Source of the DNA: a virus
Virus record (IMG/VR): IMGVR_UViG_3300030098_003579
Location: 1 to 49,328 of that record
DNA: 49,328 nucleotides
Reading direction: 5' to 3' (one strand)
Part shown: piece by piece, positions 4,272 through 49,124 of the stretch
Position numbering within the stretch: position 1 is the stretch's first letter
How the letters are laid out: every line of letters begins with the position of its first letter
Notes under the pieces: generated by a model
Databases searched by the model: none
Seen by the model: only the letters and a program-made list of their open reading frames with translations
What the model was told of the DNA's origin: nothing
Translations under genes and position numbers: made by a program

Positions 4272-4445
4272 TTATATTTCAAATCCAAAGTTTAGAATCA
4301 TAAATCTAAACCTTGCACAGTTTTTCTTTGTACACGTGGCACAAGGACACAGTCTGAATTCAAACAGTGTCCACGTACCTAAACGTAAACTCATTTCGTA
4401 TACTTCTTTTTTATTACCTGCTTTCCAAGAGTTTATCCAATTCAT
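4272..4445 (-). CDS. Small Cys-containing protein, 57 aa
   Basis: A short gene filling the gap between the membrane-protein gene and the tail fibre. Translation starts MNWINSWKAGNKKEVYEM and contains a Cys cluster CPCATCTKKNC (residues 33-43) before an aromatic, hydrophobic end (FRFMILNFGFEI). Its ATG shares one base with the upstream stop (TAATG), and its stop lies 5 bases before the tail-fibre ATG, exactly the packing seen elsewhere in this operon. That is the main reason to believe it is real. The four cysteines could bind a metal or form disulphides. No known family was recognised. Confidence 0.65.
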   Translation of the reverse strand: MNWINSWKAGNKKEVYEMSLRLGTWTLFEFRLCPCATCTKKNCARFRFMILNFGFEI

Positions 4446-7700: not shown

Positions 7701-10700
7701 CTTCTTTAAAAGCTTTTTTATTTTTTTGTACAGCATTCCAATTACGCTCAACAATAAAATCTTTTAATGATCTTTCTTTTCTAGCTTTATTTCTAGCTAA
7801 TGCTGTTTCTAAAGAACTTTCTACAAATAACATTTGTACATCATATCCTGCATCTTTATATTTTTGTGCTTGCGTAAATAAAGATATTGTACTAGCACCA
7901 GTTCCATCTACCACAACTCCATCACCTCTACCTCTAAACTTTATAGCTTTACGTTGTGCAATATCTCTAGCCTCCCATTGTAATTCTCCCCATTTACTAG
8001 CTTGCTCAGGTGTAAAATCCCTCATGTCTGTAGGTAAGCCACTATTCTTAACTAACCATTCTAAAGCTATATCTTGGTTTACTACTTTAAAGCCTTGATC
8101 TTTTAATCCTAATTGTTTAACAACATTTGATTTACCACTACCAGCGCTACCAGCTAAGAATATAACTTTTCTACCAGAAGCTGGAGCTCCAGTGTTATTT
8201 GGCATAGTGTATCTAACTCCAGACTTAGTTCTAGCTAATGTATCATCAAAATCAAAAGTAGACATACCCTTGATTTCAATAGGTTTGCTTAGCATACTAT
8301 CATTATTATTATTTAATACAACTAAATCATTTCTAACTAATACAGTTTCTTTAATATTTTCTATAGAATTTATACCCTCGATATTCAACATATCAATAGC
8401 TGCAGCAGCCTGTTCTTTCGTTATAGTGCCTGATAAAATACCTAGCATTAAATCGTATTGAAATTGAAATATAGGTTCTGTTATTTTACCATCTATTTTA
8501 ACATCAAAATTTTCTGCTAATGTTTTACCATTTTTCCATTTTATAGTATTTATTAAATCAACACCCAAAGTTTTACCAGCTACAGCATATCTAACCATAG
8601 CTACCATACCTTGAGGTAAGTCATCTAATTTACCATCAAATATTCTTTCCGCTATATTATCCCAAAATATATCTGGTAAATTTTCTTGGAGATTTTTACC
8701 ATCTTTATTTTTTACATCTTTTAATCTTTTATCTATAATCTCTAATAAAGGCCCTTGCGCGTATATAGCTTCAACTATTGGCCAAACTGTATCTATTTGA
8801 CCCACTCTAGCTGCGTTTACCAACATATCCATTATCCTTTTCTGAGGTCCAGCATGCTCTTCAGTCATCACGTTAGTAGTATCTTCTTTACCATTCTTCA
8901 TTATAGTATAGAAACTAAATGGAGATAGTATTCTAGTGATACCACCATTTTGATTATTAACAGTATCAGATGCCATTAATGAAAATAAGTAAACATGCCC
9001 TGGTTTAGGATTTTTATTTGTCTTCAAATAACCCTCCATTGCTTTAGCAAAATTATAAAGCATATCTAACCTTTGTTTAGAATCATCTTTTTTATTTAAA
9101 ACCTTTGGATTAAATCTTCTTTTCTTTGGACCCGATGTGTGCGTATAACTATTTCTTGGAAGTGATTGTTGTGCCCATAACCCACCAAGTTCATATTTTT
9201 CTCTAGGAAACATTTGTTCAAAGTTTTCTACAGAAAAGAAAGTGCTTAACCCTATTCCACCAGTCATTGTATTTCTTAATTGATCATAATATTGTGGATA
9301 CTGTTTTAAGAAGTTATCTACGTCAAGTCTCAACTGTTCACCCGTAGTTATATCCGGATTAAACGGTGATGGGGCATCATAATCTACAACTGTCTTTCTT
9401 TTTTTCTCTAACTTTTTTATATCATCACCATGCTTTAAGACGTGTTCTAATTTTTGAATACGTATTGTTGGTATATTTTCAGCATAAACATTTGAGTTTT
9501 TATCATAAAGTTGTTTTGCTAATTCAACTTTTTGTTTGCTATCAAGTGTAGGAGGATTAGAGTACATTGTTAAAGAAGTACCATCTTTTAATCTGGCTAT
9601 GTTATCAGCAGCTTCTATTCTATTTTCAATAGCATCTAATCTTATTTCTTGATTAGCCGCTAATTGTGATACTTGAACTACTAGTTCTCTAATAGCGCCG
9701 TCTGCTTTAGTACCTGGTTGAAAAGTGCCATCAGCATTTATACCGAATAAATCTAAGAATTCTTCTTTAGTTATATTAGTTCTTTTATTTTGAGCAAATT
9801 TTTGTCCTAATCCTTTTTTAGCGCCTTCTTTTACTTTAAGTCTTTCGCCTTTAGTATAAAATTCCCCAAGTTTAGTATTAGCTACACCAGTAGCTCTACC
9901 ATCTCTATCTTGACCTTCTGGTAACACATCTAATAAACCTGTATTAAAAGATCCATCTTCATTTATAGATTTAGTATATATATACTCTTGCGCAGCTTTT
10001 CTTTGCTCAGCATTTAGATCTTGTTTAGCTAATATTCTAAGTGGATCAACTCCAAATTCAGCTGATATAGCATTTAACACTTCAAATAAAGGACCAGTTG
10101 GGATAACATTTTTTTCAGTAGTAGCTTTACTTTGAGTAGATAGTAATAAATCTCTCACGCCTTTATATGTTAATCCATCTAGTGGGATGTTAGCTTTTTT
10201 AACGACTTGCTTCACCGCTTGTTTAACGTTATTTGGTAAACCCAACATATCCATTGCCATTATTAAATCATTGATATCTTGTATAGATTCGTTTAATAAC
10301 GAAGGTGACATGTCAGCATTTTCAATTTGATCAATTAACACATCTTTTTCCGCTTGAATTGTATCAGCTATTTTACCAGTCTCATCTTTAACTTTATCAA
10401 TAGATGTTCTAGCTTCTTCTTTTAGATATTGATTGATAACATCTCCTTTAGCTCTGTATATTATAGATCTACCAGCTCCACCAGATATACCAGCTAACCA
10501 TCCAAACAAACTATTATTTTTATCTAAATTATAATTATTTAAATATCTTAATCCAATTTCTTCTTTAACTTTTCTAGTAAAATCTTTTAATGCTTCTGGT
10601 GGTAAACCTCTTTCTACCATACCAACTTGTATTAAACCATTTAAAAGTTTACTGTCGACAATTTTACTATAACCTTCTACATACTCTGGTGATGCTTTAA

Positions 10701-13700
10701 ATTCGTTATTGTTTTTATGTTTTCTTGAACCATCGTCTTCCATTACTAAGTCATCAAACTCATCTCTTAAATCGGGATTTGATTTTAAATTCTTTTCAAC
10801 AGCTAAACTATGCATGTTTAAGTTTTTTCTTTCTTCTGGTGTTTTAGCTTCTTGAAACATTTTTCCCCTAGCGCCTTTAGCCATCATAGCTAATATTGAT
10901 TTATTAACTTTGTTATTTTTAAGAGAATGATGGTAATCTTTAATGTAATTTAAAACGTCTCCAGTGTTATCAAAATTAAAAGCATATCCAGTTTTTTCTT
11001 GAGACCATCTTCTAAATACACTACCTATTCTACTTATAGCGTTTTCTTTTATTCTAACATCTCCAGTGGCTAGCATTTCTGATATTATTGCTAAAGCTTC
11101 CTCTCCTTGCTTATCTATACCATACTGGCTAACTCTTTTGTTGAACATGTCTTGAGCTGTAAGAGTTTTGAATTCTAAATTATTACCAGATAATATTTTA
11201 TTTAATGCACCTCCTAACTTTACTCGCATTCTAGGGTTTGCTTTCAAAGTATTAGCGAATATAGCGTGAGTTAACTCGTGTGCTGCTGTAGCCCACATAC
11301 CATCTTCAATAGCTTTCTTTTTGTTGATTACTATCCTCATCTTTTTAATAACAGTATTTCCACTAGCATCTTTACCATACACTGGTTTAAACCTACCATA
11401 AGGATTCTCTTTTAATATACTACCACCTACATTAACGTTTCTTTTAAGTATACCATTTTTTCTATTAATTCTATTATTAATTGCTTTTGATTTCTTAGTT
11501 TCGTTTTTAATTATATTATTTTGCTCTATTTTTTTCGTCCTCTTATTTTTATTCGCGTCTTTAATTATATTTTCTTGCTTCTTAATCTCTTTATTATTCT
11601 CTAAAACCTTGGTATTAGTTTCTTTATTTACTTTATTAATCTCAGTTTCTTTTTTCTTATCGTCAAATTTTTCATTAGTATTTATTTCATCAATTTTTTT
11701 ACTATTTTCTTCTTTTAATTTGATATTTTCGTTATTAAGATCTTTCTTTTTATCTTTAGCTTCATTAATAATTTCATTACTTTCGTTTTCTATATTATTA
11801 ATTTCTTGTTTAGCATTATTAACATTGTTATCAGCTTCGTTTTTACTCTCGTTTAATTGTTCTAATTCAGCTTCATTTTCAGCAACTATATCTTCAAAAT
11901 CTTCTCTAGATGTTCCCTCACCTTGCGTCTCTGTAATTAAATCATCTGTATATTCGTCTTCGTTTTTAGTTTCAAGAATTTCAGTTTCAATATTACCCTC
12001 TTCCTCAAGCTGTGTTATATAATTATTCATATTAGCCATGCTTTTCTTATACTGCTTCTCTGCTTCTTCGGGATTTACTTTAGCTAATATTTTGTGTTTT
12101 AATATTTTTCTATCAGCAACGCCTTGCTCTAAATGCATGATCATTGCTATTTTTGTATCATGAGATATTTTATCATCACGCATTATTTTCTCAGCTTCTA
12201 ATCGATCAGCGTGATCAGCTTTGTGAATATCAAGTAATATTCTTTTATCTTCATTACTCATTAAATCAACTTTAAACAACTCTCTTTTAAATTGATCTTC
12301 TATTTTTAGTGTTGTCTTAAGTATTTCTTCATCTATTTTTTTGACCTTATCAGTATCCCCATCTTTTTCTGCTTGCTCTTTTCTTTTTTCTAATGTAATC
12401 GTTTTTTCATACAACTCACCTATTATTTGATTAGCGTCTTTGGTTAAAAATGGATTAATTACCATACTTTTAAATACAGGTCCCGCGTGCATAAAACCAG
12501 ATAAGAACATACCATTTACAAACGCTTCATCTAATCCATCAGCCCAGTGAGCGCCTTCAACGCCTGACCAAACATCCATAACATTACTAGAAAATTGAGT
12601 TAGTAATTCTGAGGTTCCTTCTTCTATTACGTTTTTTGTAAAATAAGCCGAATAATAACCAGTTGCATTAATAAAACTTTGACTGTCACCAATTCCGTAA
12701 TTTGCCCTAAGGCCCTTTTTAAAACCTAGTTTAGCATGTCTAGTTCTACCAAATACATAACCAAGTCTTTTCCACTGCCCAAATGTAAGTTTTTCAAACA
12801 ATGCTTCAGTTGCGCCAGTTACGCTAGCATTAAGAAGTATCTCATAAAATTTAAAATCTTGACCATAAGCACCTCCAGTTTCAGCAAATAATGCATCTTC
12901 TCTTCTCATGAAATCATATTTTTCTGAAAACGCATAAGTACCCATGACACGTAAAGAATATCCTCTAGACACATAAGCAGCGACTAATATAGGTAAATTA
13001 TCCGTTAATCCAGTAAACAAATAATCTAGTCCATCACTAAAATCCTCTATATCACCCCATTCAGTTGGTAAACTTAGAGTTTCGTTCCACTCTTCTATCT
13101 GCATAGCCACATCATCACCCATTCGGTTGCAACCGTCTTCTATCCATTTAAGCCCACTGTAACCTAAGCTACCTTCCTTAAAACCACCAATGTTACTTAC
13201 TAAGTGAGACATTGATGCCCCAAATTTAGCAACGCCACCATAAAGTGTATTAAAAATAGATATACCTAATTTTTTTGGATAATACGTTCCTGGTTCGTGA
13301 TCTCTTTCTAGTATATTTTGCATTAACTTCCAGTTTTCTAAACTGTAGTTTGCTGTATCTAACTGCTCAAATCTTTCACCTAATATTTTTTCAGTGGCAG
13401 GTATAGCCTCAGATGTTAAAAGATTATATTGACTTAATAAACTAGATACTTCCAATTCCCATTCTCTAAGTTCTTCTTTAATAAGAGAGTTATTTTGAAA
13501 CTCCTCGTTTGTAGTTATATTATATTTTTCTTTTAATTCCCCTATTTTACCAAGAACCCCTACATTTGGATCCCCAAAACCCAATTCAAACAACTTCATT
13601 TCTATCTCTAAAGCGGTGCTGTACATATCTTCTATGTTCTTTGTCAACACTTCTATTTCAGTGGTATAATTAACTATATCTTTATCAAGTTGCGTAATAT

Positions 13701-21048: not shown

Positions 21049-24000
21049 TTATGATGGTGGTGGATACGTTACGGAATTAAAATTAATAGTTATACTAGTT
21101 TGATCTCCATTAGCATCAGTTGCAGTTACAATATACTCACCAGGGCCATAACCACTTCCATCTGCATTTGTTAGCACAGCTCCAGGAATTGTAAAACTTT
21201 GCTGATCTAGTATTTGATTACCTTGTACATTAAAGTTATCACTACCAGTTCCGCTATTATTGTAACCATTTGGACCTTGTACGGTAAAAGAATATGGATA
21301 AGTACCACCCTGTACTACAGCGTACATCGTACCATATGGACCTCCATCAGGTTGAAAAGTATTCCAGTTATTGTACATGCTCAACAGAGCTGGCGGAGAA
21401 AATATAGGTGGTTGTCCAACCGGCGCTTCAGCGTCAGTAGTTGGATTACCATTTTGATCACTTGCGGTCATCTCTATATTAGCTCCAATCTGAGTATCAG
21501 TAGGATCTTCTAATGGAAATCCTATACCTTGAACATGAAGCCAAGGCGCTTTTTTCGTTAAATTTGTTGATAACAAATCGTTTGTAGTTGTTACACTACC
21601 GTGAATAAAATTAAACCATTTATTTTCTTTTTGTATAAACTCAGGTACAAAACCAGTTTGTAAATCAGTATTAAATGATTGTACTTTCCACCCAGATTGG
21701 CCAGTTAAATTATAATAATTTCCATCATTTATATTAGTCAGTTCATTACCTTCCACATCATATCCAGTTGTTTCAGTAAATTGTTCAATATTAGCTTTAG
21801 ATCCTTCATAGTTTATTGCTCTAAAAGACTTTATTGTATCTGGCATATCATTAAATACAACTTCTATTTCAGAATTAAAAGTATTATTTCCATAAAAGCT
21901 ATTTCTACTAACAGCAGTAGAGTGATGTAACCAAATCTTATTAAGTGGAGAATATAATTGATTATCTTTAGGTCCTTCATTATCCGCATCTGCAGTTTTA
22001 TCTCCTCTATGATAAGGAAGTGGAGCTGTAAAATATTTACCAGTTACAGAAACACCACAAGCATGTACAAATGATTTAAAACTAACCCATGCTTTACCAC
22101 CTTCATTAAATGTTACTGTTTGAGGTTCAGCGGCCACCGTACAACCAGCTGGAGTACATACCGTTTCTCCTTGATTTACTTCATTTATACTAAGTGTTAC
22201 ATTATATTCTCCGTTAACAATATCATATGTACCTATTATATTTTCACATTTTGGTAAAGTTTCTCTAAAATAAGTCTTCATACTTACATTAGATATAGGC
22301 GTAAGTCCGTCTCTTGATAATCTTAATACAGCGCCTCTTTGTTTATCAGTAAAATATAATCTGTAAGTATCTGTAGCCATTGATTCTGGATTTTTAGATA
22401 TACCATAATCCCCAGCAAATGGAACAGCCGTACCAAGAACTCTATTTGTTGCTGTTAATTGTGCATTACCATCAGCGTTATATAAAGCGTCTTTACTTGC
22501 TAATACTTTTAAAACCTTATCTTCACAAAATGTTACTAAATCAGTGTCTCTTGTTTTTAATCTTTGTATAGAACCGTATATTGGATTTAAACTTTTAGTT
22601 ATTTTTTCAGCCATATTAAACTGATTTAATCCATTGATTCCGGATGTAGAATTAAATATCTCAGATGAATGAATTAGATTGCTTCCTAAATGCTCTTCTT
22701 TGTATTCTAAGAACGTAGAAGACACTCTAACACCATTGTCTATTGTAGGAGCGTTAAAGTCATCTCTAATCCTGTCTGATTCAACAGCGTTACCAAAAGA
22801 GTAACAATTAAACCAACCTAAATCTACGTCATATCTCCAAACCTCTCTTTCTAATCTAAAATATCCAGTTACTTGTATAAAGTTAAATCTACCAATACCT
22901 TTAGCTAATAGTGGTTTACTAATATAAACAGTTGCTTCTTCTCCTGGTAAAGTCTCAATAGCTGTAACAAAAGTTCCAAACTCTATATTATTACCAGTTA
23001 CTTCCATTCCTACTTGCAATCCAGCAGCTAATCCTGAGTTCGTCCAAGTACTCCATGAAAATTCAATAAAATAAGAAGGAGCCCCGTTTTCTTCCGTATT
23101 ATAACCATCACCTATTACACCTAAGTACCTAGTAGAAGGAACTGGTACATCTACAATATTGTCATCTGCTAAACCATAAATAATAGGTTTAACATGATCT
23201 AATATTTTAGATCTAGTTACTAAACCAAATCTTTTATTATTACTACTATGGTAACCTATATGTTTAAAAGCTACTATATCTCCTATTGAAATCCCTTTAG
23301 CATTTGTTTGAGTTAGAACTTTTGTTTCAAATTCATCAGGATATTGTTCGTTATTTGTAGCAACCAAAATAACATCATCACCCATTGTTTTCCAAATCCA
23401 TGGATTACCTGAAAATTCTTCAGTTTCAATATCACCAGTCGTTAAAACTCTCTTATCAAGATCAAATAAACAAGCGTTATTCCTTGAATACGAGGGGTCT
23501 ACATACTCGTTTATATTATTTTTAGTTAAATACATCGGTATTCCTCTACTTGCTTCGTAATATATATCTACATCAATATTTTCTTTTGGTTCAGTTTCCC
23601 AACAAGCGGAATCAGTAGCTACAGTGTCAACTTGTAATTCACCTAAACCTACTTCATCTAATATTTCTATTACCAATTTTCCAATACCAGTATGTTTTAC
23701 TTCATTCCTTGGATCCCAAAGTGTAATATCTACACCACGAGCCGTGTCTGAACCACCGTCATCATCCACTTTAGCGAAACGTGTTATAATAGAATGTCTT
23801 TTCTGAATAGGATTACTAGTTTCCTCTTCCCCTAATGGAAAATTGATTGCCCCATTAATACTTATAGGTCCTTCTATGTCAGCACGAGGTGTCCATACGG
23901 TTGTTTCGTGGTAATAGATTGTTTGGACAACCGTATTATTTAACCCCCCATAATTTAACTGATAATTATACGCAGTTGGGCTACTATCAACGTATTCTTG

Positions 24001-27000
24001 AGCGAGTTCGGGACTATTATAACCACTTTCGTAGGCAAGATAAGAGTAAGTAACATTAACACCAGGCACGTTTTGAGTCATAGGTATTACTCGATACACA
24101 GTCTGGTTTGGATCATTTTGAAATCTAAATAAAGTACCAACCTCTTGCATTTTTGCTTTAAATATACTATCTTTTCCAGGATTAAATCCTAATCCGGTTT
24201 CATTAGAAGTAGATAAAGTTAATTGACCATAATTATTTGGTTCAGTACATCTACCAGGAGATAAACCAGCTGGTTGGTAATTTTTACCATCACCCACTAT
24301 ATTAAGTGGTTCGGTTCCTGAACCATACCATTGGAGTATTAGACCTGTTAAATCACCAGTTAAGGTATCCGGTGCAGTGTCGGGTAAATCCATATAATCT
24401 AATTCTTGAAAGTAGACATAATTACTGTAGCATGGTACCATATCTATAAATACAGAAGCAGCTTTATCTTCTTCAACTTGTTCAGCCCACCACTCCCAAA
24501 ATAATTTAGTAGAATCAGTATCACTTATACCAAAATTTGGCACCGCATCTCCATTAATGTCAAGAGGCCAAGAATCTATATTAGCTTCATTAAATCCAGC
24601 GACTTCTTCACCATCAGCATCAGTAGGCCAAGGCCAACCATTACCAGTATCACCTTCAGCGCCATCGCCATATGGACCAGGTGTATTAGGTACAAAAGAA
24701 TCATTTTCATTTGGAAGACCTGGGTTCGCATCCCAATTAGCTATTAACCCTATTTCATAAACATCTTGTACTTGGTAATTACCTGTACCAGCTGCTATAT
24801 TTAAAACACTTTGACTTAATATTTCATCTCTTAATATTTTAACAAAAAATCTACCATCAAATTCAGGTTTATTTTCTACAACCTCATCTTTAAATTCCAT
24901 CCAATATATAATTCTATCACCAGTACCATCAGCTGCTTCATCTTCATCATCAACTAACTCAACGTTAATTTGACTAGGATCACTGAGTATAGCAATTATT
25001 TTTTGATGCATATCTACTTCTGTTGCTTTCCATATTTCTTGAATATCGCAACCCCGTCTATTACCAGTTGCTTTTATCCTAGATACTGTTCTCCAAGGGC
25101 TAAAGGCTTCTATAGGTTGATTAACGTCTCCACCATCAGGCACAAAAGTACCAACTATCCTTACTTTTTTTACACCATCAAAATCCGTATTTGTTAACAT
25201 TCCACCCTCATTATATCCGGACCAATGGTCACTACTTGTTCTTATTTTTATCTCACTTATTAAACCATCTGGAATACCATCAGATACTGATACGTCTCCG
25301 TTTACACCATAAACACCTTTTCTATCTATCTCTATTCTACCCATGGGTCTATGATCGGTTTTTATAAAATCAGGCGCTTCGTTTTCTATAGCCAATATTT
25401 TATATCTAGCTTGAGATGTTACTGGGTTATGATTGCCATGTTCATTTTTTAGTATTAAGTACGTTTCTTCATCTACCTTATTTCTATCAACAGAAGGAAA
25501 TGCTAACCACACATTACCATCACCTGCATCATACCATCTATCTAATACTAAATTATAGTATTCATTAGATGTTTCCTTTACATAATATTTAACGTAATCT
25601 ATCCAATGTAAAGGACTTGAATTACCAGTAGCACCCCATTGTTGTTGTACGTTAAATTTATTGCTAAAATGTGCTAAACTTTTTTCAACACCAATATCAC
25701 CTGTAATAGTTTCTCCTTCTACCACTTGATAACCACTTGAAATCACAGGTGTTTCTCTTCCGTATTTATCTCCAAATACCATTCCAAATTTGTAACTTCT
25801 TATAGATTTTACAGATTTTTCAGGGACAGGGAAATAAACTGGTTCACTTACTACTTGTTGTTTTAAACCTACTATTCTTTTAATATCATATCCTTGCGTG
25901 TAATTACCATAAACAAGTCTATTAGCGGTTATCTCTTGTGTCACTGCTGTTTTAGGTACATTATCATACCCTCTAAATAATTGATTAGTTGGTAGTACCT
26001 TATGAATCATTTCTGATGTAACAACTAATACTCCAGTATTTTCTAACTCTCCTTCTATTATATTTGGATCTGAAAAATCCTCCCATTCTGAATCTATTTC
26101 TCTAGTTATAGTTTTTATTATATATACATTTTGGTCGTCAGTTGTTTTCCATAGTATATCTATAGATTGAACATCATTTGGTCTAATTGATGTGTCTGGT
26201 ATAAAATCTTTTATGACTAAATATCTAAGTTGATTTTCCATACCATTATTATAACCTTGACTAGGTGTATAAGAAAATGAACCAGGTAAAAAAGCTAATT
26301 CAGACCAAGGAGAGTATGTAGAATATTCACCATCTTCATATTTATATCTATACGCAACTCTACCAAATTTAGTTTCGAATAAAGCTCTTTTTTGCTCTAT
26401 AGTAACTTCCCATAAACTTTGCTCTAATGTTACATTTTCATAATCTATATCAATAACTGATATTCTTACTGTTACTGCGTTATCATCTACTTCTGTTACT
26501 ACAGCCGTTATTGTTATAGGATTAGCATCATAAAAGGTGTTTCTAAAATTAAGAACATCACCAACTCTTATATCTATACCTAAAAATACGTCGTCGATTA
26601 TTGTCCTAAGTGTACCAACGCTAGGTATAGCTGGTGTTAAAAGTTCGTTAGTAAAACTATAGTCAACAATAAAATCAATTTCAGTATCCCTATCTGTATT
26701 TTTCATTAATAAACTAGGAGGAGATTTAGGGGCTTCTCTAATTACAGTAATATTTTCTTTTAAAACATCACCACCCTCTACAAGTAATGAAGGTTCTAAT
26801 GTTCTTACATCTACTAAATCATCTGGATAAGTCGCTGTTTCGTCGCTAGGATCGCTAACATAAAGTTTGGTATGCTGAGGATTAGAGCCAAAATTACTTG
26901 TTCCTCTTTTAGATCTTGTAATATTAATTTTTTTAGGTTCATTTACGCCATCTGTCCAAAATAATAAATCATCAATAATATTTATATTAGGTATTAGATT

Positions 27001-27960
27001 TAACTTAATATTACCTTTAGTTATAGTTTTCCAATAATCGAATTCTAATACTCTTTCTGCGGCAAAAATCCAAGTAAGTTTCCATGCGTCTCCTTCAAAA
27101 GCCAAATCCATTAAATTAACAGCACTTTGTTGAGTGGCTAATGTTAAAAGATTATCTTGTATATCTACTATTTCAACTCCAAAACCGTCTGTACTATTAA
27201 TACCATTACGAAATAATAAATGATTACCACTATTATCTCTAAGATAAGCTATCATACCTACTCTATACAAAGATCCGTTTCCAACAGTAATTTGAGTAAA
27301 ATCAGTGTCAACACCAACACCAAAATTACTTGAACCTATATCTATCATTCTACCTGTTATAGCATATTTATCAATAAATATCGGTGTTGTTAAAGATGTT
27401 TTAGTATCTACTTCTATAATACTATCAATCCAAATCTTAGGGGAAGGTCCCTGTATAACAGCATGTTGATAATTGTCATGTGGATCATAGTCATCTGGCT
27501 CGATACCCATGTTCTCTAAAGTTTCATCATCAGGATATTCACTAACTGGTATTTGATTGTCTCTTATAGTTTCCCATGACAAATACCTCATATCAGATAT
27601 AGGTACATTTTGGCCTTGAGTTGTTTTAATAGGCCAAGGTGCTGTTGCAAAAAAATACGCTTTATCATTTTTTTCATCTGCAACGCTACCTAATATTCTT
27701 GTTATATTAGTATTATTTTCATCTTTTTCATCTACATCATAATTATAACCTATAGTTTTATATATCTCAGGTTTAAAATCATTATTACCTTTTACATTTT
27801 GAACGGTACCAGCATCACCAATACCACTAGCATCATCACCACCATCAGTAGTTCTGACTTGTATATTTAAAGCATCTCTATATTCACCGTTACGAACTAA
27901 TCTCTCGTCGAGATCTTTGTTCATTTTACCGGCTGTAAATGTTCTTTTAATTTCCGGCAT
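21049..27960 (-). CDS. Giant tail nozzle-like protein with C-terminal SprB-like repeat, 2303 aa
   Basis: 2303 aa. The N-terminus (KRTFTAGKMNKDLDERLVRN then GEYRDALNIQV) matches the opening of nozzle / tail tubular B-type proteins of short-tailed phages, with the 'tool, no knots, low-number ... R-DALN' pattern, followed by a very long beta-rich body. The protein is about three times the usual length of T7 gp12 (~800 aa), so many insertions are present. The last 86 residues (2218-2303) contain GGTYPYSFTV and later GPGEYIVTATDANGDQTSI, the beginning and end signatures of SprB/PKD-like repeats common in Bacteroidota adhesins. It follows the two connector-type genes by two bases. Nozzle assignment is by N-terminal resemblance and gene order; the C-terminal domain may contact the host surface. 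Confidence 0.62.
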   Translation of the reverse strand: MPEIKRTFTAGKMNKDLDERLVRNGEYRDALNIQVRTTDGGDDASGIGDAGTVQNVKGNNDFKPEIYKTIGYNYDVDEKDENNTNITRILGSVADEKNDKAYFFATAPWPIKTTQGQNVPISDMRYLSWETIRDNQIPVSEYPDDETLENMGIEPDDYDPHDNYQHAVIQGPSPKIWIDSIIEVDTKTSLTTPIFIDKYAITGRMIDIGSSNFGVGVDTDFTQITVGNGSLYRVGMIAYLRDNSGNHLLFRNGINSTDGFGVEIVDIQDNLLTLATQQSAVNLMDLAFEGDAWKLTWIFAAERVLEFDYWKTITKGNIKLNLIPNINIIDDLLFWTDGVNEPKKINITRSKRGTSNFGSNPQHTKLYVSDPSDETATYPDDLVDVRTLEPSLLVEGGDVLKENITVIREAPKSPPSLLMKNTDRDTEIDFIVDYSFTNELLTPAIPSVGTLRTIIDDVFLGIDIRVGDVLNFRNTFYDANPITITAVVTEVDDNAVTVRISVIDIDYENVTLEQSLWEVTIEQKRALFETKFGRVAYRYKYEDGEYSTYSPWSELAFLPGSFSYTPSQGYNNGMENQLRYLVIKDFIPDTSIRPNDVQSIDILWKTTDDQNVYIIKTITREIDSEWEDFSDPNIIEGELENTGVLVVTSEMIHKVLPTNQLFRGYDNVPKTAVTQEITANRLVYGNYTQGYDIKRIVGLKQQVVSEPVYFPVPEKSVKSIRSYKFGMVFGDKYGRETPVISSGYQVVEGETITGDIGVEKSLAHFSNKFNVQQQWGATGNSSPLHWIDYVKYYVKETSNEYYNLVLDRWYDAGDGNVWLAFPSVDRNKVDEETYLILKNEHGNHNPVTSQARYKILAIENEAPDFIKTDHRPMGRIEIDRKGVYGVNGDVSVSDGIPDGLISEIKIRTSSDHWSGYNEGGMLTNTDFDGVKKVRIVGTFVPDGGDVNQPIEAFSPWRTVSRIKATGNRRGCDIQEIWKATEVDMHQKIIAILSDPSQINVELVDDEDEAADGTGDRIIYWMEFKDEVVENKPEFDGRFFVKILRDEILSQSVLNIAAGTGNYQVQDVYEIGLIANWDANPGLPNENDSFVPNTPGPYGDGAEGDTGNGWPWPTDADGEEVAGFNEANIDSWPLDINGDAVPNFGISDTDSTKLFWEWWAEQVEEDKAASVFIDMVPCYSNYVYFQELDYMDLPDTAPDTLTGDLTGLILQWYGSGTEPLNIVGDGKNYQPAGLSPGRCTEPNNYGQLTLSTSNETGLGFNPGKDSIFKAKMQEVGTLFRFQNDPNQTVYRVIPMTQNVPGVNVTYSYLAYESGYNSPELAQEYVDSSPTAYNYQLNYGGLNNTVVQTIYYHETTVWTPRADIEGPISINGAINFPLGEEETSNPIQKRHSIITRFAKVDDDGGSDTARGVDITLWDPRNEVKHTGIGKLVIEILDEVGLGELQVDTVATDSACWETEPKENIDVDIYYEASRGIPMYLTKNNINEYVDPSYSRNNACLFDLDKRVLTTGDIETEEFSGNPWIWKTMGDDVILVATNNEQYPDEFETKVLTQTNAKGISIGDIVAFKHIGYHSSNNKRFGLVTRSKILDHVKPIIYGLADDNIVDVPVPSTRYLGVIGDGYNTEENGAPSYFIEFSWSTWTNSGLAAGLQVGMEVTGNNIEFGTFVTAIETLPGEEATVYISKPLLAKGIGRFNFIQVTGYFRLEREVWRYDVDLGWFNCYSFGNAVESDRIRDDFNAPTIDNGVRVSSTFLEYKEEHLGSNLIHSSEIFNSTSGINGLNQFNMAEKITKSLNPIYGSIQRLKTRDTDLVTFCEDKVLKVLASKDALYNADGNAQLTATNRVLGTAVPFAGDYGISKNPESMATDTYRLYFTDKQRGAVLRLSRDGLTPISNVSMKTYFRETLPKCENIIGTYDIVNGEYNVTLSINEVNQGETVCTPAGCTVAAEPQTVTFNEGGKAWVSFKSFVHACGVSVTGKYFTAPLPYHRGDKTADADNEGPKDNQLYSPLNKIWLHHSTAVSRNSFYGNNTFNSEIEVVFNDMPDTIKSFRAINYEGSKANIEQFTETTGYDVEGNELTNINDGNYYNLTGQSGWKVQSFNTDLQTGFVPEFIQKENKWFNFIHGSVTTTNDLLSTNLTKKAPWLHVQGIGFPLEDPTDTQIGANIEMTASDQNGNPTTDAEAPVGQPPIFSPPALLSMYNNWNTFQPDGGPYGTMYAVVQGGTYPYSFTVQGPNGYNNSGTGSDNFNVQGNQILDQQSFTIPGAVLTNADGSGYGPGEYIVTATDANGDQTSITINFNSVTYPPPS

Positions 27961-33393: not shown

Positions 33394-35787
33394 CTAAGTA
33401 CGAGAGAATTTTTCCATATTCACTCCTCCCGTAATTATATCATTACCTGATGATTCAAATTTTTTATCAGAATCACCTTGTTTTCTTTGTTCAATCATAT
33501 CCATCTGGTGTCCAGCTTGTCTATCTACTCTCATATCTTTTCTATCTTCTCGCATAGATTCCATTTGGTTACTTGTCTGTTGCTTCATTCCTTCTATTTT
33601 AGAATTTAATTCAAATTCAAATTGCATTAATTCTTTTTTAGCTTGAACCTCTTGTTGTAAATAGGCTATTTTCATTTGGTTTCTTGTTTGTTCCATTTGA
33701 GCGTCAATTTGCATTTTTTGTTGGTTCTTTTGCATTTCAGCCTGAGCGGCAGCTTGTTGTGCTTGTTGATTAGCCTGTGATTGCGCTTGCATGTTCTGTT
33801 GTTGCATTTGCTGATCTCTTTCTTGTTTTTTTCTTCTTTTTACTTTTAATAATTGATTAGCAAGTTTTAAGTTTCTAGTATTACGCAAGTCAATTGCATC
33901 ATCTAAATCGATTGATTGTTGGGCTAATGCTGTTTGTATATTATTTTCTAATATAGCTTTTTCTTCTTCATCTGGCATTAATTCTATAAATATACCAAAA
34001 TCATAAAGATGTAAATTTTTCATTTCATGAAGAGTAGCAACGTTATGAGCACCTAAAGCTCTTACAAAAGCGTCTTTTGTAGGTGAGTATTCTATTATAT
34101 CAGATATTCTTAATGATAAACATTCTGCTACTTCTGCTGTTATAAATAACATTGATTGAAGTATATGTCTCGTGGCTGTATTAGAATTAGCCGCAGCTAG
34201 TTTTTGAACTCCAACTAAAGCATTTTTATCTGGCGTAGTAGCATCTCTAGCCTCGTTTAATCCGGTTGTATCTCTTATCATTTGCAAATAATAATTATAA
34301 GTTTGGATTAAACTCTGTAATTTACCGCTATTAACTCCATTATTTATTTGTTGTATAGGTACTTTACCAGGATTACCATCTCCTTCTGATGTAAAACTTC
34401 TACCAATAACAGAACCTGTTTGGAAAAACATGTTCAAAGCTTCTTGTGGATTATAGTTTGTACCATTACCAAGATCAACTTCAGCTAAACCATCAACATC
34501 AAGGTAAACCCCATCTGGTACCATTCTCGCCATTACTTGTTGTAACTTTAAATGCGTTAATTGGATTGTATCAGCAAAACCAGTTATTCTACCAACTAAA
34601 GATTCTATTCTACCTTCATACATTCTAGGCGCTACTATTTGGTAATTCATTTTAACTTTACTAAAATCGGAATCTGATCTCATCATATTAGGACACATTC
34701 TCCATCTTAATATTCTATCTGCTCCAACTAAGTATACTCCTTCATATAAAGCTTCTATAACTCTTTCTAATTTTTGAAAATTACCATCTTTATCTTTAGG
34801 AGGATTAAATGTATCATCTTTTTTTATAACTTTATCACCACCAGAACCCGTTGTTTTTAATTTATACACGTCGTTCATATGTGTTTTGTAGTTAAAGTAT
34901 ATTACTTGAACTTTGTTTTTATCATCGTTGGTATTATAATTGTATGGATAATGACGTTTGTCAATTATACTTTTTATATCTTCTTCTGTTAATTCAGGAA
35001 ATTCTTTTACAAGTTCGTTTATAGGTATTTCTTTAACCTCACCAACATAATATATATCATCAAAATACGGAGATTCAGTATGGGAATAAATTAAACTAGC
35101 AGGATCTACATATTTAGCCTCAGCGCCGCTACTAAAATCAAATGTAGTTTTTGTAGCACCAATTCCTAAAACTGTTAAATCGTATAAAACTCTTCTTCTT
35201 ATTAAATCATAATCACTGTTTTCCATTAATACGTTTAAAGCTTGTTCCTCTGCTAATTCTACCGCTTGCTTGTAATTAAGCTGCATATGTAATGCTAATT
35301 CTTCTTCAGAATCTGGTAAAGTTTCTGGATCGTTTTCATACATATCTATATCAAGTCTAGATTTAACTATATCGTTAAATCCTTTAGAACGCATATCACG
35401 CAATATAGATTCCATGTATTCGGTTCTTTTACTTACACCATAATCATCTTGTGAAAAACAATTTATTTCGTAATTTCTTTGAGCCATTCCATTTACTACT
35501 ATATCTACAAATTTAGGTATAATTGGAACAGGTTTCCAATCTAAGTTAAGATAAGATAAATCGCCATTTATAGATAATTCGTTTTTATATTTTTGTATAG
35601 ATTGTTCTCCTCTCGCATACAGACGTAATGTATGAAAATTATTTTTATGACTATTATATTTTGATGTCGCACCTGAAAACCATTCATGTCTTATTGCCCT
35701 TGCTACTTTTAAACCGTATTCCTCGCTAAGCTTTTCTAAATCGCTAACCGCTTGTGATGGAAAATTTATGGAGTGTTCTAATCTCAT
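33394..35787 (-). CDS. Portal protein
   Basis: 797 aa. The N-terminal 500 residues form the globular portal body with typical segments: LRLYARGEQSIQKYKNEL, PVPIIPKFVDIVVNGMAQRN, LNVLMENSDYDLIRRRVLYD, then YVDPASLIYSHTES and TGFADTIQLTHLKLQQVMAR. The C-terminal ~150 residues are an unusual Gln/Met-rich helix (EMQKNQQKMQIDAQMEQTRN and similar), probably the crown/barrel region inside the capsid. Overlaps the terminase stop by four bases (ATGA), so it is translationally coupled to TerL. Length and layout fit large portals of crAss-like and Cellulophaga podoviruses. High confidence from position and pattern, although I cannot run a profile search. Confidence 0.85.
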   Translation of the reverse strand: MRLEHSINFPSQAVSDLEKLSEEYGLKVARAIRHEWFSGATSKYNSHKNNFHTLRLYARGEQSIQKYKNELSINGDLSYLNLDWKPVPIIPKFVDIVVNGMAQRNYEINCFSQDDYGVSKRTEYMESILRDMRSKGFNDIVKSRLDIDMYENDPETLPDSEEELALHMQLNYKQAVELAEEQALNVLMENSDYDLIRRRVLYDLTVLGIGATKTTFDFSSGAEAKYVDPASLIYSHTESPYFDDIYYVGEVKEIPINELVKEFPELTEEDIKSIIDKRHYPYNYNTNDDKNKVQVIYFNYKTHMNDVYKLKTTGSGGDKVIKKDDTFNPPKDKDGNFQKLERVIEALYEGVYLVGADRILRWRMCPNMMRSDSDFSKVKMNYQIVAPRMYEGRIESLVGRITGFADTIQLTHLKLQQVMARMVPDGVYLDVDGLAEVDLGNGTNYNPQEALNMFFQTGSVIGRSFTSEGDGNPGKVPIQQINNGVNSGKLQSLIQTYNYYLQMIRDTTGLNEARDATTPDKNALVGVQKLAAANSNTATRHILQSMLFITAEVAECLSLRISDIIEYSPTKDAFVRALGAHNVATLHEMKNLHLYDFGIFIELMPDEEEKAILENNIQTALAQQSIDLDDAIDLRNTRNLKLANQLLKVKRRKKQERDQQMQQQNMQAQSQANQQAQQAAAQAEMQKNQQKMQIDAQMEQTRNQMKIAYLQQEVQAKKELMQFEFELNSKIEGMKQQTSNQMESMREDRKDMRVDRQAGHQMDMIEQRKQGDSDKKFESSGNDIITGGVNMEKFSRT

Positions 35788-38018
35788 ATTTTATTTTTAA
35801 TTATCTGTGATGAAAATCCTTTGTTATTATATTTTGCTATATTCAAGTTTAATGGCGTTTTTTCTCTTTTAGGATTTGGTCTATATAAATGTCTATTACA
35901 AGCCATTATTGCTAAACCAGAACTAATAGAAGCATCATGTTTTGTTCTTTTATTTATATCAAATTTAGACCAATCATTTAATGTTTCATTAAAATACATA
36001 GTACCATAAGTACCATCTTGTAATAAACCAATATGATCGTTTATATACATTTCTATAGCTGCCGCGTGCGCTTGTTTTATGTCTTCGCTTGAGTTAGGTA
36101 TTCCACCAACTTCTTTTTCTGCAACAGATAGTTTGTTCCAAACTTTATCAGGTCTATTCATACTAAATCCTCTATAACCTCTTCTACGTAAATAGTATAA
36201 TAATCTTGGCTTATTGTTCTCTGCAAGTATTGGCATTCCATAAAATACCAATGCCATTAAAACATCTTCAAAAAATATCTCAGCTGTTTGTGGTCTTGCT
36301 ATATATTCTAAAAAGAACGTATTAGCTGGAGCATCTTCCATTGAATACTTTGTTAATCCATGCAAAGCCCCTTTTGATCCTCTACTATCTACTGTTCCAG
36401 ATATATCATATGAGTCACAACCAAATGCGCCCATATGTTCGTTACCTGGATATTTTACGCCATTTTTTAATATAACGTTATTTTGTGATTCTCCATTTGG
36501 TACCCAACTTACTTTAAATCTTCCTTTAGGATCAGGATTAAAAGTTACTAAAGTATCTTTAACTCCATTTGCCCATTGAAAATTACCTGGAGTTAATACG
36601 GAAGAGTTTCTATTCCCTTCATTATAATCTATTTGCTCATATATTTTTATAAGATTAAATAAACTATTTCCCGTTTCATCTCTAAACGCATGCTCTTCAG
36701 TTCTAGGAAATTGACGATAAAATTCATTTAAAGCGTCTTGATCATCTTTTAAACCATCAGCCTCATTGTCCCAATGATCTATTACTCCGTAATCTATTTC
36801 TATTCCTTGTGGATCAAATGATCGTTCTCGAGGAGTATTAAACACAGGTTGTCCATACTCGTCGATGAAACCCTCGTAATTCCATTCCATAGGAATAAAC
36901 AAAGAATATAATCCCGACTTAGTCTGTCCATTACGATTTCGTTTTGTAACATCTGAATTATAGTATAAGTTTTTAAAATTATCACCACCTTTATCAAGAG
37001 CATTGCTAGTACTACCCATCATGCATTTACCAACTACTCTACTACCTAGTCGTAAACAAGTTTTTGTGACTCTCCAATTATTTTTTATATTATCAGGTCT
37101 CTCCCATTTACCGCTTTCATCATGAACTAATAAAGATAGTTTTTCACCATCATAGCTATTATCACCTGTATTTTTCCAATCAATAGTTGTATCAAGTCCT
37201 TCCATGTCATCTTGCTCTTCTCGTTCCCTCATTTTCCTACGAGTAAACTTCTTTGCAGGTACCCTATAAGCGAGTTCGGACTTTGGTCGGTCCATACCGT
37301 CCTGTATTGGCTTGAAGAAGAATGGATAATTTAAACTAATTGGTACTACTTTATCTGTAAACATTTTCTTTGCATCACTACCAGTTTTAGATAATATACC
37401 AAATCTACTATCACTAGCTAAAGTCGCTAAATTAACAGTTTCAGCTGAACTCATAAATGAAAAACCAGAACGTCTATTTTTTAAATAACACATTCCGTAA
37501 CTTCTGTGATCTGCTTTACAAGCCTCCCAAAATATGTAAAACAATCTATTTGCTTCTCTATAATCTGGAGCACCAACATCGATCTTGCTCCATTGTAAAT
37601 ACATATAATGTGTACCTGTTATATATGTCGGTTTACCATTATTCATAAACCAAAAACCTTCTTCTCTTCTTCTAAATTCTTCATCTATATATCCATAATG
37701 CTTTTCTTTAAAATCATCTGGATATTCTTGCCAATCAAACACAGTTTTAATTCTTTTAAAATCAGGATTAGTTGGAAACTGTTTCCATTTTTGCTCTGAT
37801 TTTGTTTTACTACAACTATATATTTCTTTAGGTTGTTTAGGTAAAGCTATTTGAAAGCCTTGTATTTCTATTACTTCACCTATCATTCCAGTTTTAGATA
37901 TACAAACTATATCGGCTTCTTTATTATAACCATATTTCCATCTTTTAGACTTATTAAGTCGTTTAATGGTATTTATTTTTACAGGTTCTACAACCTTAAC
38001 TAATGTTTGCTCGTACAT
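35784..38018 (-). CDS. terL: Terminase large subunit (DNA-packaging ATPase/nuclease)
   Basis: 744 aa. ATPase half: a Walker-A-like KNRRSGFSFMSS at residues 180-191, the variant (RQ/RR)xGxS form common in terminases; Walker B LSLLVHDE at 294-301 with the catalytic acidic pair; and a coupling motif GSTSNA at 325-330. Nuclease half: an RNase H-like motif GCDSYDISG at about 533-541, with the expected metal-binding aspartates. Packages phage DNA through the portal, whose gene overlaps it by four bases. The one-base overlap with the upstream small gene (TAATG) suggests that the upstream product is its small-subunit partner. The Lys normally in Walker A is replaced (GFS rather than GKS), which I regard as a known family variant. 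Confidence 0.9.
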   Translation of the reverse strand: MYEQTLVKVVEPVKINTIKRLNKSKRWKYGYNKEADIVCISKTGMIGEVIEIQGFQIALPKQPKEIYSCSKTKSEQKWKQFPTNPDFKRIKTVFDWQEYPDDFKEKHYGYIDEEFRRREEGFWFMNNGKPTYITGTHYMYLQWSKIDVGAPDYREANRLFYIFWEACKADHRSYGMCYLKNRRSGFSFMSSAETVNLATLASDSRFGILSKTGSDAKKMFTDKVVPISLNYPFFFKPIQDGMDRPKSELAYRVPAKKFTRRKMREREEQDDMEGLDTTIDWKNTGDNSYDGEKLSLLVHDESGKWERPDNIKNNWRVTKTCLRLGSRVVGKCMMGSTSNALDKGGDNFKNLYYNSDVTKRNRNGQTKSGLYSLFIPMEWNYEGFIDEYGQPVFNTPRERSFDPQGIEIDYGVIDHWDNEADGLKDDQDALNEFYRQFPRTEEHAFRDETGNSLFNLIKIYEQIDYNEGNRNSSVLTPGNFQWANGVKDTLVTFNPDPKGRFKVSWVPNGESQNNVILKNGVKYPGNEHMGAFGCDSYDISGTVDSRGSKGALHGLTKYSMEDAPANTFFLEYIARPQTAEIFFEDVLMALVFYGMPILAENNKPRLLYYLRRRGYRGFSMNRPDKVWNKLSVAEKEVGGIPNSSEDIKQAHAAAIEMYINDHIGLLQDGTYGTMYFNETLNDWSKFDINKRTKHDASISSGLAIMACNRHLYRPNPKREKTPLNLNIAKYNNKGFSSQIIKNKI

Positions 38019-42893: not shown

Positions 42894-43151
42894 TTATTCT
42901 ACTATAACTATATCCCTAGCACGTATAACCTTGTACATAGTATCTTTGTAAGATATATCATGTCCAGCTATTGCATCGTAATATATTGAATCACCTTTTT
43001 TGACTACTTCAACTAAATTACCAACAGATATTATATTAGCTTTTCTATATCTATTTGTTTCATCTGTTTCATCTGTTAATATAAATCCACCAACTTTTTT
43101 TGGTCCTTCTTTTATTATATCTACTATAACATAATCATTAATTGCCTTCAT
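42894..43151 (-). CDS. groES: Phage co-chaperonin GroES
   Basis: 85 aa, short for GroES (E. coli 97). Order of motifs: N-terminal strand KAINDYVIVDII, mobile loop region with GGFIL (21-25) where GroES has GGIVL, strand KANIISVGN (37-45), KKGDSIYYD (51-59) for the VGDIVIF strand, and a final DIVIVE (80-85). The roof hairpin is short. It caps the GroEL ring and triggers the folding cycle. The ATG lies inside the end of groEL (14-base overlap), so it is translated after groEL; in bacterial operons groES comes first. Probably folds phage structural proteins with its partner or competes for the host ring. Confidence 0.9.
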   Translation of the reverse strand: MKAINDYVIVDIIKEGPKKVGGFILTDETDETNRYRKANIISVGNLVEVVKKGDSIYYDAIAGHDISYKDTMYKVIRARDIVIVE

Positions 43152-44703
43152 TTACTCTTATATTAGAAATTACACAATCTGCTGACATTATAGTTAATGC
43201 TACACTTACAGCATTTTTAAGTGCAGACTTAGTTACTAACACAGGATCAATTATTCCTTCACGAACCATATTAGGGAATGTTCCATCTATTACGTTACAA
43301 CCATAACCTTCTTTTAAATTACTAGGATTCATCATTAACCCAGCATTATCCATAATAGTTTCAAATGGAGAAGATAAAGCATTAAGCAGTACTTCACCAG
43401 CCTTGCTGGTCGAAATTTTTTGAGATGCGTTCAATAATGCGATTCCACCACCTGGTACAATACCTTCTTGTAATGCAGCTTTAGTTGCGTATATAGCATC
43501 TTCAACTCTATCTTTCTTTTCTTTTAATTCAACTTTAGAATTAGCACCTACTCTTATTATACCTACACTACCTGATAACATAGCTAATCTATCTTCAAGT
43601 TTCTTTTTGATAAAATCATTTGATTCTTCAGTTAAGTGTTTATTTAATTCATCTATTCTATCCTCAATACCCTGAGTCATACCTTCTAAAGTTAGCACAG
43701 TATTTTTATCATCAGTTACAGCAAATTCAGCTTCACCCAAATGCTCTGGCTTCATAAGATCTAAATCATCACCTAGTTCTTCATTAAGTATAGTGGCCCC
43801 AGTTAATATAGCTAAATCTTCAGTAGCATCCTTCTTAGTAGGACCAAAGCCTGGTAAATCAATAATATTAACCTTAATAGTACCTTTTACCTTATTCATA
43901 AGTAAAGCAGCTTTAACTTGTTGTGCTACTGGTGCTACAATTAGTAAAGATCTGTTGTTCTTTATAACATGTTCTAATATATTTTGTATTTTACGTACAT
44001 TAGGTATTTCAGATGAACATATAAAAACTAAAGGTTTATCTAATTCACACGTCTGTTTTTCAGTATTAGTAACAAAATGTGGTGATGTTAAATTACAATC
44101 AATTTTAACACCATCTACAATATCAACGTATGTATCCTCTGATTCGCTTTCTTCCATTAATACTACACCGTTCTTTCCAACTTTATCATAAGCCTCGGCT
44201 ATTATAGCTCCTAACTTTTTATCGTTGTTACAAGATATAGCACTAACAGATTTAAGCATATCACCTTCTACATCAATAGCTATATTATTTAAATAGCTTA
44301 TGACACTATCTAGTGTTTCATTAACTCCATCTTTAATTTCCCTGATTGTAAGACCATCCGCGACTGCGGTGTCTATTTGCTTGATTATTGCTTCAGCCAA
44401 CACTGTAGCAGTTGTTGTGCCATCACCAGCATCTTTAACTGTATTTCTGGCAGCTTCTTTGATTAAGGTTGCACCCATATTTTCTACCGGGTCATATAAG
44501 ACTACGCTCTCTGCAACGGTTACTCCATCTTTTGTAATGACCGGTTTGCCTCTCCCATCTTCGTAGATAACACATTTACCTGATGCACCTAACGTAGATT
44601 TTACGGCTTGGGCTAACTTATTAACTCCAGTGATGACTCTTTCTTTAGCTTCACCACCGAAGTCTAAGTTCTTAACCAATTCGCTTGGTAAGTTATATTC
44701 CAT
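43138..44703 (-). CDS. groEL: Phage chaperonin GroEL
   Basis: 521 aa with the full Hsp60 plan. Key residues: TKDG (57-60; Asp corresponding to E. coli D52), DGTTTAT (94-100; D87 region), the apical domain (about 190-370, e.g. SVSAISCNNDKKLG and MEESESEDTYVDIVDG at its borders), and VEDAIYATKAALQEGIVPGGG with the catalytic Asp and the nucleotide-binding glycines. It ends NIRVNEGN without the GGM tail that lines the cavity of most bacterial GroEL. ATP-driven folding chamber for phage proteins. Phage GroEL genes are known but uncommon; here it lies among virion genes upstream of groES. It is preceded by an A-rich leader with repeated TTAAAT units. Confidence 0.95.
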   Translation of the reverse strand: MEYNLPSELVKNLDFGGEAKERVITGVNKLAQAVKSTLGASGKCVIYEDGRGKPVITKDGVTVAESVVLYDPVENMGATLIKEAARNTVKDAGDGTTTATVLAEAIIKQIDTAVADGLTIREIKDGVNETLDSVISYLNNIAIDVEGDMLKSVSAISCNNDKKLGAIIAEAYDKVGKNGVVLMEESESEDTYVDIVDGVKIDCNLTSPHFVTNTEKQTCELDKPLVFICSSEIPNVRKIQNILEHVIKNNRSLLIVAPVAQQVKAALLMNKVKGTIKVNIIDLPGFGPTKKDATEDLAILTGATILNEELGDDLDLMKPEHLGEAEFAVTDDKNTVLTLEGMTQGIEDRIDELNKHLTEESNDFIKKKLEDRLAMLSGSVGIIRVGANSKVELKEKKDRVEDAIYATKAALQEGIVPGGGIALLNASQKISTSKAGEVLLNALSSPFETIMDNAGLMMNPSNLKEGYGCNVIDGTFPNMVREGIIDPVLVTKSALKNAVSVALTIMSADCVISNIRVNEGN

Positions 44704-47845: not shown

Positions 47846-48310
47846 TTATCCTCTATCAAATCTCCAAACTTCTAATGTAGCTGCGGCGCTTGCATCGTAA
47901 GTTATATCCATTGCATAGTCGTAAGGCATGAACGCAAATTCACCTGGCTTTAGCGTAAAAAGCCTTGTTGTTGCTGAAAAGTCATCTGCTTGATTAGCTG
48001 CTCCTATATCAGCCGCTGTGTCATCATCTGCTTGAACACCTATATATATATCTCCAGTGGCTCCAGCATTTGAAAAGTACAAAAATGCACCTACCGTACC
48101 AGCTGTTTCTGTATCACCACCTAAAGCTGCGCCGTCAAAAAGTAGTGCGTGAGATGAATCATTGGCTATACTTATTATTTGAGATTCAACTATATCTACC
48201 GTTAAAGAGTCTGTAGTTGATAGAGACAATGCTACGCTCAATGGTCCAGCGTCTGTAGTAGCTGAACTAGCGTTTGCTGTTAATGTTAATGTTGGTTTTA
48301 TTATTCCCAT
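47846..48310 (-). CDS. Virion protein, first gene of the late operon, 154 aa
   Basis: 154 aa. MGIIKPTLTLTANASSATTD opens an Ala/Thr/Asp-rich beta protein; TLKPGEFAFMPYDYAMDITY and the ending EVWRFDRG match the tandem paralogue downstream. It is the first gene of the leftward late operon: 28 bases upstream lies the ATACGA-N7-TCG motif copy. Being promoter-proximal suggests high expression, fitting an abundant decoration protein. ATG chosen because an A-rich leader precedes it and the reading frame starts there. Confidence 0.65.
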   Translation of the reverse strand: MGIIKPTLTLTANASSATTDAGPLSVALSLSTTDSLTVDIVESQIISIANDSSHALLFDGAALGGDTETAGTVGAFLYFSNAGATGDIYIGVQADDDTAADIGAANQADDFSATTRLFTLKPGEFAFMPYDYAMDITYDASAAATLEVWRFDRG

Positions 48311-48437
48311 TGTGTTTTGTTTTTTAAGCTTAATGTTATACGACTTATTGTCGTTATTCTACAAATAAGATAATCACATAGTGTTTTATATATTTACTAT
48401 ATTCTCCCCGTATTATAAATATAGGGATAAAGTACTA
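48311..48437. promoter_or_regulatory. Leader and promoter region of the late operon
   Basis: AT-rich, non-coding. On the minus strand it is the upstream region of the 154-aa gene and includes one copy of the spaced dyad ATACGA-N7-TCG (see 48338-48358). A partial Bacteroidota-type -7 match (TTATTTG) lies at about 48365-48371, but no clear -33 partner. No gene is seen. Confidence 0.45.
48338..48358 (-). promoter_or_regulatory. ATACGA-N7-TCG dyad, late-operon copy
   Basis: Plus-strand ATACGACTTATTGTCG with TTATT after it. The core ACGAC (48340-48344) and GTCGT (48350-48354) is a perfect 5-bp inverted repeat with a 5-base centre. It lies 28 bases before the ATG of the first late gene. Two more copies lie upstream of the rightward genes. 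Promoter or operator of a phage-specific regulator is the likely meaning. Confidence 0.5.
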
Positions 48438-48655
48438 CCCCCCTCCTCTCTACCCCCCTACCCCTCCCCCAAAGTCCCCTCTCTCGACCCAGCCCCCTTC
48501 ATTCCTATCATTTCTCCCTATACTTTTCGCATTTTCCCTACAAAATCCCTTCCATTCCTCCTCTTCTCTCCACTTCTATTCCTATTTCTAATTTATTATT
48601 ATAATTATTATTCCTATTCCCTCCCCCTCCCCTCCCCTCCCCTCCCTCCTCTTCT
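48438..48655. other. G-poor pyrimidine tract with G-quadruplex potential on the minus strand
   Basis: Plus strand is strongly C/T. It has only four G (48474, 48486, 48492, 48529), and the G-free stretch runs from 48530 on to 48742. Two C-rich clusters: 48438-48480 (several C3-C6 runs) and 48617-48655, a run of 39 consecutive pyrimidines with at least six C3-C5 blocks separated by single T. On the minus strand these are G3-G5 runs with one-base A loops, the classical G-quadruplex pattern; the plus strand could form an i-motif, and the mirror-like tract could form H-DNA. It lies between the divergent promoters. No credible coding sequence. Confidence 0.7.
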
Positions 48656-48745
48656 ATTTATTCTATTATTCTATTTATATTTATTATATTAATTCTATTA
48701 TTATAATTCTATTTAATTAATTATTATTATTATTATACTTTCGTT

Positions 48746-48788
48746 ACACAAACTAAATACGAGTGTATATCGATAATATATATGTAAC
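48746..48788 (+). repeat. 43-base direct repeat, copy 1
   Basis: Matches 49082-49124 at 37 of 43 positions without gaps, 336 bases apart. Contains ATACGA-N7-TCG followed by ATAAT-ATA-ATGTAAC. It lies 172 bases before the first rightward ATG. Confidence 0.7.
48757..48777 (+). promoter_or_regulatory. ATACGA-N7-TCGATAAT motif, rightward copy 1
   Basis: ATACGA (48757-48762), seven bases, TCGATAAT (48770-48777), inside direct repeat copy 1. Upstream of the rightward 43-aa gene. Possible phage promoter or operator. Confidence 0.5.
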
Positions 48789-48818: not shown

Positions 48819-48871
48819 TAGTGTGACAATTGCCAGTTATTCTAATAACTTAATAGCTAAATGTCACACTA
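48819..48871. repeat. Nested inverted repeats
   Basis: Outer arms TAGTGTGACA (48819-48828) and TGTCACACTA (48862-48871), 10 bp and perfect, enclose an inner hairpin AGTTAT-TCTA-ATAACT (48835-48850). A cruciform, operator pair or replication-origin element is possible. No gene crosses it. Confidence 0.6.
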
Positions 48872-48960: not shown

Positions 48961-49092
48961 ATGACTAAATTAAAATTAATAATATTAAAATACTTAATAA
49001 ATTCTATTTGGAAATATAATAGTAAAATGTGTAAAGAAAAGTTTACTGAATCAACACTTGATGACTTATATACTTTAATAAACACAAAATAA
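48961..49092 (+). CDS. Small rightward early gene, 43 aa
   Basis: 43 aa: MTKLKLIILKYLINSIWKYN followed by SKMCKEKFTESTLDDLYTLI and NTK. A hydrophobic/basic N-terminal half and a polar helix. It is preceded by an A-rich leader (AACATAAACAAATAATATAC), and its last codons run into direct repeat copy 2. It is the first rightward gene after the divergent region, so it probably starts the early set; no family recognised. Short, therefore uncertain. Confidence 0.5.
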   Translation: MTKLKLIILKYLINSIWKYNSKMCKEKFTESTLDDLYTLINTK

Positions 49093-49124
49093 ATACGAAT
49101 TAATTTCGATAATATAAATGTAAC
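49082..49124 (+). repeat. 43-base direct repeat, copy 2
   Basis: Counterpart of 48746-48788 (37 of 43 identical). It overlaps the last codons of the 43-aa gene and leads into the next rightward gene. Confidence 0.7.
49093..49113 (+). promoter_or_regulatory. ATACGA-N7-TCGATAAT motif, rightward copy 2
   Basis: ATACGA (49093-49098), seven bases, TCGATAAT (49106-49113). It lies 46 bases before the ATG of the following gene, a spacing that fits a promoter or operator. Confidence 0.5.

Follow-up and report, generated by a model that had tools for sequence, protein, structure and literature searches.

The minus-strand G-rich block at positions 48424-48497, together with the adjoining box at 48409-48423, is likely to be a late promoter of this phage, read according to our model by a phage sigma factor or activator. 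Judged from sequence, this element, with its parts held at fixed spacing, probably acts as the main control point at which virion genes are switched on in a family of uncultured marine phages.

Genomic setting

The window, meaning the whole stretch of DNA analyzed here, is a 49,328-bp viral record from IMG/VR whose late genes lie on the minus strand. Leftward genes span 1-48310 and include those for the portal (33394-35787), TerL (35784-38018) and GroEL (43138-44703, minus strand), and the late operon opens with a 154-aa gene at 47846-48310 on the minus strand. The rightward side, from 48743, holds early-type repeats and small early genes, and the window stops short of where a sigma gene would come, the early module being cut off. 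TerL is 64% identical to that of the uncultured Manatee Spring podovirus MW202828, ~45% identical to that of Elemovirus and ~31-39% identical to those of Cellulophaga and Tenacibaculum phages, which places this phage near a group infecting Flavobacteriia.

Other features of the late operon include what appears to be a small GroES-like gene adjoining that for GroEL (42894-44703, minus strand), a 3730-aa protein (4762-15954, minus strand) in which aa 2597-2743 form an AAA_33/zeta-toxin-like kinase domain, and a 2303-aa virion protein (21049-27960, minus strand) that matches phrog_14478 and weakly, below the cut-off, the C-terminal domain of the crAss muzzle.

A conserved element upstream of the late operon

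Relatives were retrieved via the first late gene, the first early gene, a 97-aa late gene (394 loci confirmed, of which 80 were kept) and the promoter core. Most alignment anchors were located by a pattern with an upstream-G filter, and ~13 were added without this filter. Ungapped alignment of 47 non-redundant contigs, from -90 to +40 around AATATTTAtAATACGG, revealed an element of ~90 bp that precedes the late (virion) operon on the minus strand and consists in order of GGGGgctGGg (-73), TTT (-49), G blocks (-40 and -26 to -15), ACACTnTACTCC and AATATTTAtAATACGG. Within the window, where all of these parts lie on the minus strand, the distal box GGGGGCTGGG (box1; 48488-48497) is 65-74 nt upstream of the -7-like box, and is followed by the conserved TTT motif at about -50 to -47 (CTTTG in the window; 48470-48474), the middle G block GGGGGAGGGGTAGGGGGG (48453-48470), the proximal G block AGAGGAGGGGGG (48438-48449), where a host promoter would have its -33 box, the conserved block ACACTnTACTCC in the form GTACTTTATCCC (48424-48435), and the -7/-10-like box TATATTTATAATACG (48409-48423), which occurs once in the window. 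Transcription is predicted to start at about 48411, based on the geometry of the host -7 box (PMC6847099). The late leader contains a conserved CACTATGTGATTATC (48369-48383, minus strand) and an inverted repeat, ACGAC..GTCGT (48340-48354, minus strand).

The strongest columns of the alignment fall in box1 (-71, -70), the TTT motif (-49, -48), the proximal G block (-18, -17, -15), position -9 and the -7-like box. G is found at -71 in 46 of the 47 contigs, T at -49 in 45, and G at -18, -17 and -15 in 45-46, while columns -80 to -77 carry at most 0.14 bit. The motif is single in the window (expected number 0), where it has a matrix score of 92, compared with -19 and -23 in two shuffled windows. 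Given the exact distances of the boxes from the -7-like box over ~70 nt and the lack of conservation further upstream, the element is most simply read as the site of a protein-DNA complex. An Rfam search gave no match, and a candidate RNA hairpin around the -7-like box (TACTCC/GGAGTA) was rejected, as its downstream arm shifts or is absent in some members.

Box1 and the G block are also present in more distant contigs. When IMG/VR was scanned for the core motif only, in which no G-block position was included, 12 contigs were returned, and all of those among the matches listed have G-rich sequence upstream. The G content itself varies: L085 carries the element in a G-poor form, and the proximal block is TAG-rich in several contigs (e.g. 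L063, L071, L100, L104 and L114). These TAG-rich blocks, together with the lack of any GGG run in L085 and L096, indicate that G blocks are not strictly needed. The conserved feature is the exact spacing of the G blocks to the -7-like box and not a canonical G-quadruplex (G4).

Partial likeness to the host promoter

The housekeeping promoter of Bacteroidota has the consensus -33 TTTG / -7 TAHHTTTG (PMC6847099, PMC2483708). The phage box, [TA]AtATTT[AG], fits TAHHTTTG at 6-8 of the 8 positions in 64 of 67 contigs, with all 8 matched in only one of the 67. A -33 TTTG box was found in none of these 67 contigs; the G blocks stand in its place, and the phage boxes, unlike those of the host, extend to -73.

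The G-free run and the variable spacer

The sequence-only reading, which described 48438-48742 as one tract and 48530-48742 as free of G, is correct on the G-free run, but four G are present in 48438-48529. The interval covers two distinct things: the promoter element, which is conserved (48424-48497), and a spacer (48498-48742) that is C-poor on the minus strand, reaches from box1 to the early promoter and holds the G-free run. This run (48530-48742, plus strand, 213 nt) is the longest in the record, the second longest being 83 nt, and is far above chance expectation (mean 66 and maximum 97 in 100 second-order Markov shuffles). Also as described earlier, 48617-48655 consists of 39 consecutive pyrimidines on the plus strand (purines on the minus strand) and contains CCCTCCCCCTCCCCTCCCCTCCCCTCCC, with six C3-C5 blocks and one-base loops. 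The window has a longer pyrimidine run (42 nt) within a gene at 5056-5097; the gene for the 3730-aa protein holds two such long runs (27 and 42 nt) at 5003-5097. Runs of four or more C are concentrated in 48438-48742, with 10 of the window's 64 inside this 305-nt interval and at most 4 per 305 nt elsewhere.

The proposed position of the tract between divergent late and early promoter-like sequences was borne out. Two copies of an early promoter-like repeat, AAATACGAxTxxATxTCGATAATATAxATGTAAC, lie on the plus strand at 48755-48788 and 49091-49124. Across the family the spacer ranges from 16 to 254 nt, the window's being the longest of 54, and it is C-poor throughout. Relatives also have a G-rich tract in this position, which the earlier reading had proposed to check. 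In those inspected the GGGGA repeats of 48613-48655 did not appear, and on the same basis the 39-nt run is private to the window's phage. L019 and L073 have other G-rich spacers.

Neutral expansion of low-complexity sequence is likely to be the true account of this private tract, given how widely spacer length varies. As an explanation of the whole region, chance or neutral expansion is very improbable; it does not explain an ungapped conserved element and is already refuted for 48424-48497. Misassembly is ruled out, as the same layout occurs in many independent contigs, including two (L162 and L163) binned into bacterial MAGs.

G-quadruplex potential

The tract might instead be a DNA or RNA G-quadruplex or R-loop element, in which the G-rich, C-poor late strand folds once melted and gates late transcription or primes replication. 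The minus-strand G4 potential suggested earlier is real: the window contains two canonical patterns (48453-48479 and 48619-48646) and no others, the latter within the 39-nt run, and its minimum G4Hunter score is -3.08. Across the family, G4Hunter scores are at least 1.5 in 53 of 60 contigs, the predicted minimum-energy RNA fold includes a G4 in 47 of 60, and runs of four or more G number 4.1 per element compared with 2.1 in shuffles. Positions -75 to -14 average 51% G and 7% C over 60 regions, and C is depleted both in this box region and in the spacer (5%) relative to late genes (17%).

As a conserved property, however, the G-quadruplex is not supported. The canonical pattern (four runs of three or more G, loops of 1-7) is present in the window but in only 28 of 47 contigs across the family, and this, with the lack of GGG runs in L085 and L096, means that the predicted G4 potential is strong and frequent but not obligatory. 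Moreover, a G4 has no need of a fixed spacing to the -7-like box. On balance we regard a G4 or R-loop element as unlikely. Slightly less likely still, in our view, is a class of phage promoters with a G-quadruplex or G-run block in place of the -33 box, at which DNA structure, and not a sequence box, would recruit or time the phage sigma factor (or host polymerase).

Contig ends, packaging and replication

Among 75 contigs, the start lies within the 110 nt upstream of the -7-like box in 17, at distances of 15-108 nt, and in the next 890 nt in another 17. This is an ~8-fold excess over nearby sequence (binomial P ~2e-8 against uniform ends) in a sample drawn by a late gene, such that early-side fragments are under-represented. 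Such crowding is what polymerase stalling in the tract predicts; the likely cause, as we infer, is sequencing or assembly dropout at G runs, which would reflect technical trouble and not a fold formed in the cell. The frequent breakage of this family's contigs right at this control region calls for caution.

The same ends could be read as a packaging (pac/cos) site or genome terminus, but most contigs, including those of 60-70 kb, span the tract unbroken, making a genome end unlikely there; no fixed genome ends were found at the tract, and the TerL gene is ~10 kb away. We reject this reading as having hardly any probability.

A replication origin in the divergent region, also raised by the earlier reading, is improbable. 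In its favor, this is the single conserved region between the modules, gene direction and hence strand bias switch here, and a 46-50-nt TGTGACA...TGTCACA site adjoins it. On the other hand, neither an initiator gene nor an iteron array was identified nearby, and GC skew, which had been proposed as a check, tracks gene direction and so cannot separate replication from transcription. Of the three roles put forward earlier (origin, packaging site and transcription switch), the last is the best reading.

The adjoining site, TRTGACATTAGC..AGTAAC.GGC.ATTGTCACA, lies at 48821-48869 on the minus strand of the window. Its TGACA/TGTCA arms are invariant in 46 of 46 aligned copies, and it comes directly after the late promoter in some phages but amid the early promoters in others, in the same orientation; it is possibly an operator or origin site. 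In a distant clade (L025-L043, ~4200-4700), CTTCCCCCCTTATGATATTATACTACGTATAATATC with a GATATTATAC/GTATAATATC inverted repeat occurs just after the late promoter, which is flanked by G and C runs.

A sigma-70-like gene in the early module

Of 21 family records, 18 contain a gene for a sigma-70-like protein, which carries regions 2 and 4. Pfam Sigma70_r2 matched in 11 of 15, and the 251-aa L143 protein used as a query added two of those 15 and five of six further records. In records where both positions are known, comparison of its coordinates with those of the first early gene places the sigma gene on the early strand, ~5-9 kb into the early module. There was no match in the window, where the early module is cut off, or in G008 and G020 (52 and 59 kb), which may be incomplete. 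The element was checked for individually in records other than L031, L037 and L047.

Phages of the genera Elemovirus, Callevirus (phi40:1), Bacelvirus (phi46:3) and Gundelvirus (Gundel_1) resemble this family in their TerL (31-45% identical) and in a late operon with the same head genes, and some also encode GroEL/GroES. They differ in that a matrix scan of 33-45 kb segments found no late-promoter element in them and whole records contain no sigma-70 region 2; the latter is also missing from the whole record of MW202828, the fifth named relative, which has a weak, partial likeness to the element (matrix score -11.7). The sigma gene and the element may merely be co-inherited, as these phages are not phylogenetically independent. 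A search for single-subunit RNA polymerase (PF00940) gave no match, nor did it in control genomes, and a search of the two giant proteins for the DxDxD polymerase motif gave no convincing site.

A model for the early-late switch

In the model that we favor, early genes would be made first, and host RNA polymerase core would then be directed to the late promoter by a phage-encoded sigma-70-family factor, an activator contacting the G blocks, or both. The G blocks would take the place of the -33 box, and the late operon, ~48 kb, would be transcribed leftward from this promoter. The C-poor upstream spacer would be a tolerated, variable separator of divergent early and late promoters, and its G4 potential may have arisen incidentally or may help in a secondary way with melting or with the blocking of through-transcription.

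Phage-encoded sigma factors read late or middle promoters in T4 (gp55) and SPO1 (gp28 and gp33-34). The present family resembles these phages in having a sigma-70-like protein (regions 2 and 4) from the early module and a late operon that starts at a non-host promoter. It differs in the long G blocks that precede the phage promoter, which are not known to precede the sigma-dependent promoters of T4 or SPO1, and sigma recognition is here putative. G4-bearing control regions include mitochondrial CSB II and the Neisseria pilE G4, which share with our element a G-rich, C-poor strand adjoining a promoter; in this family, by contrast, the G4 pattern is missing in some members and folding is predicted only. 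No G-rich late promoter of Bacteroidota phages was found in the literature searched, most subscription journals being outside its reach.

For a family known here almost exclusively from metagenome contigs, these observations define a probable late promoter by its sequence and provide a candidate for a dedicated sigma factor, and they make the switch from early to late genes testable with a single short fragment and a single protein.
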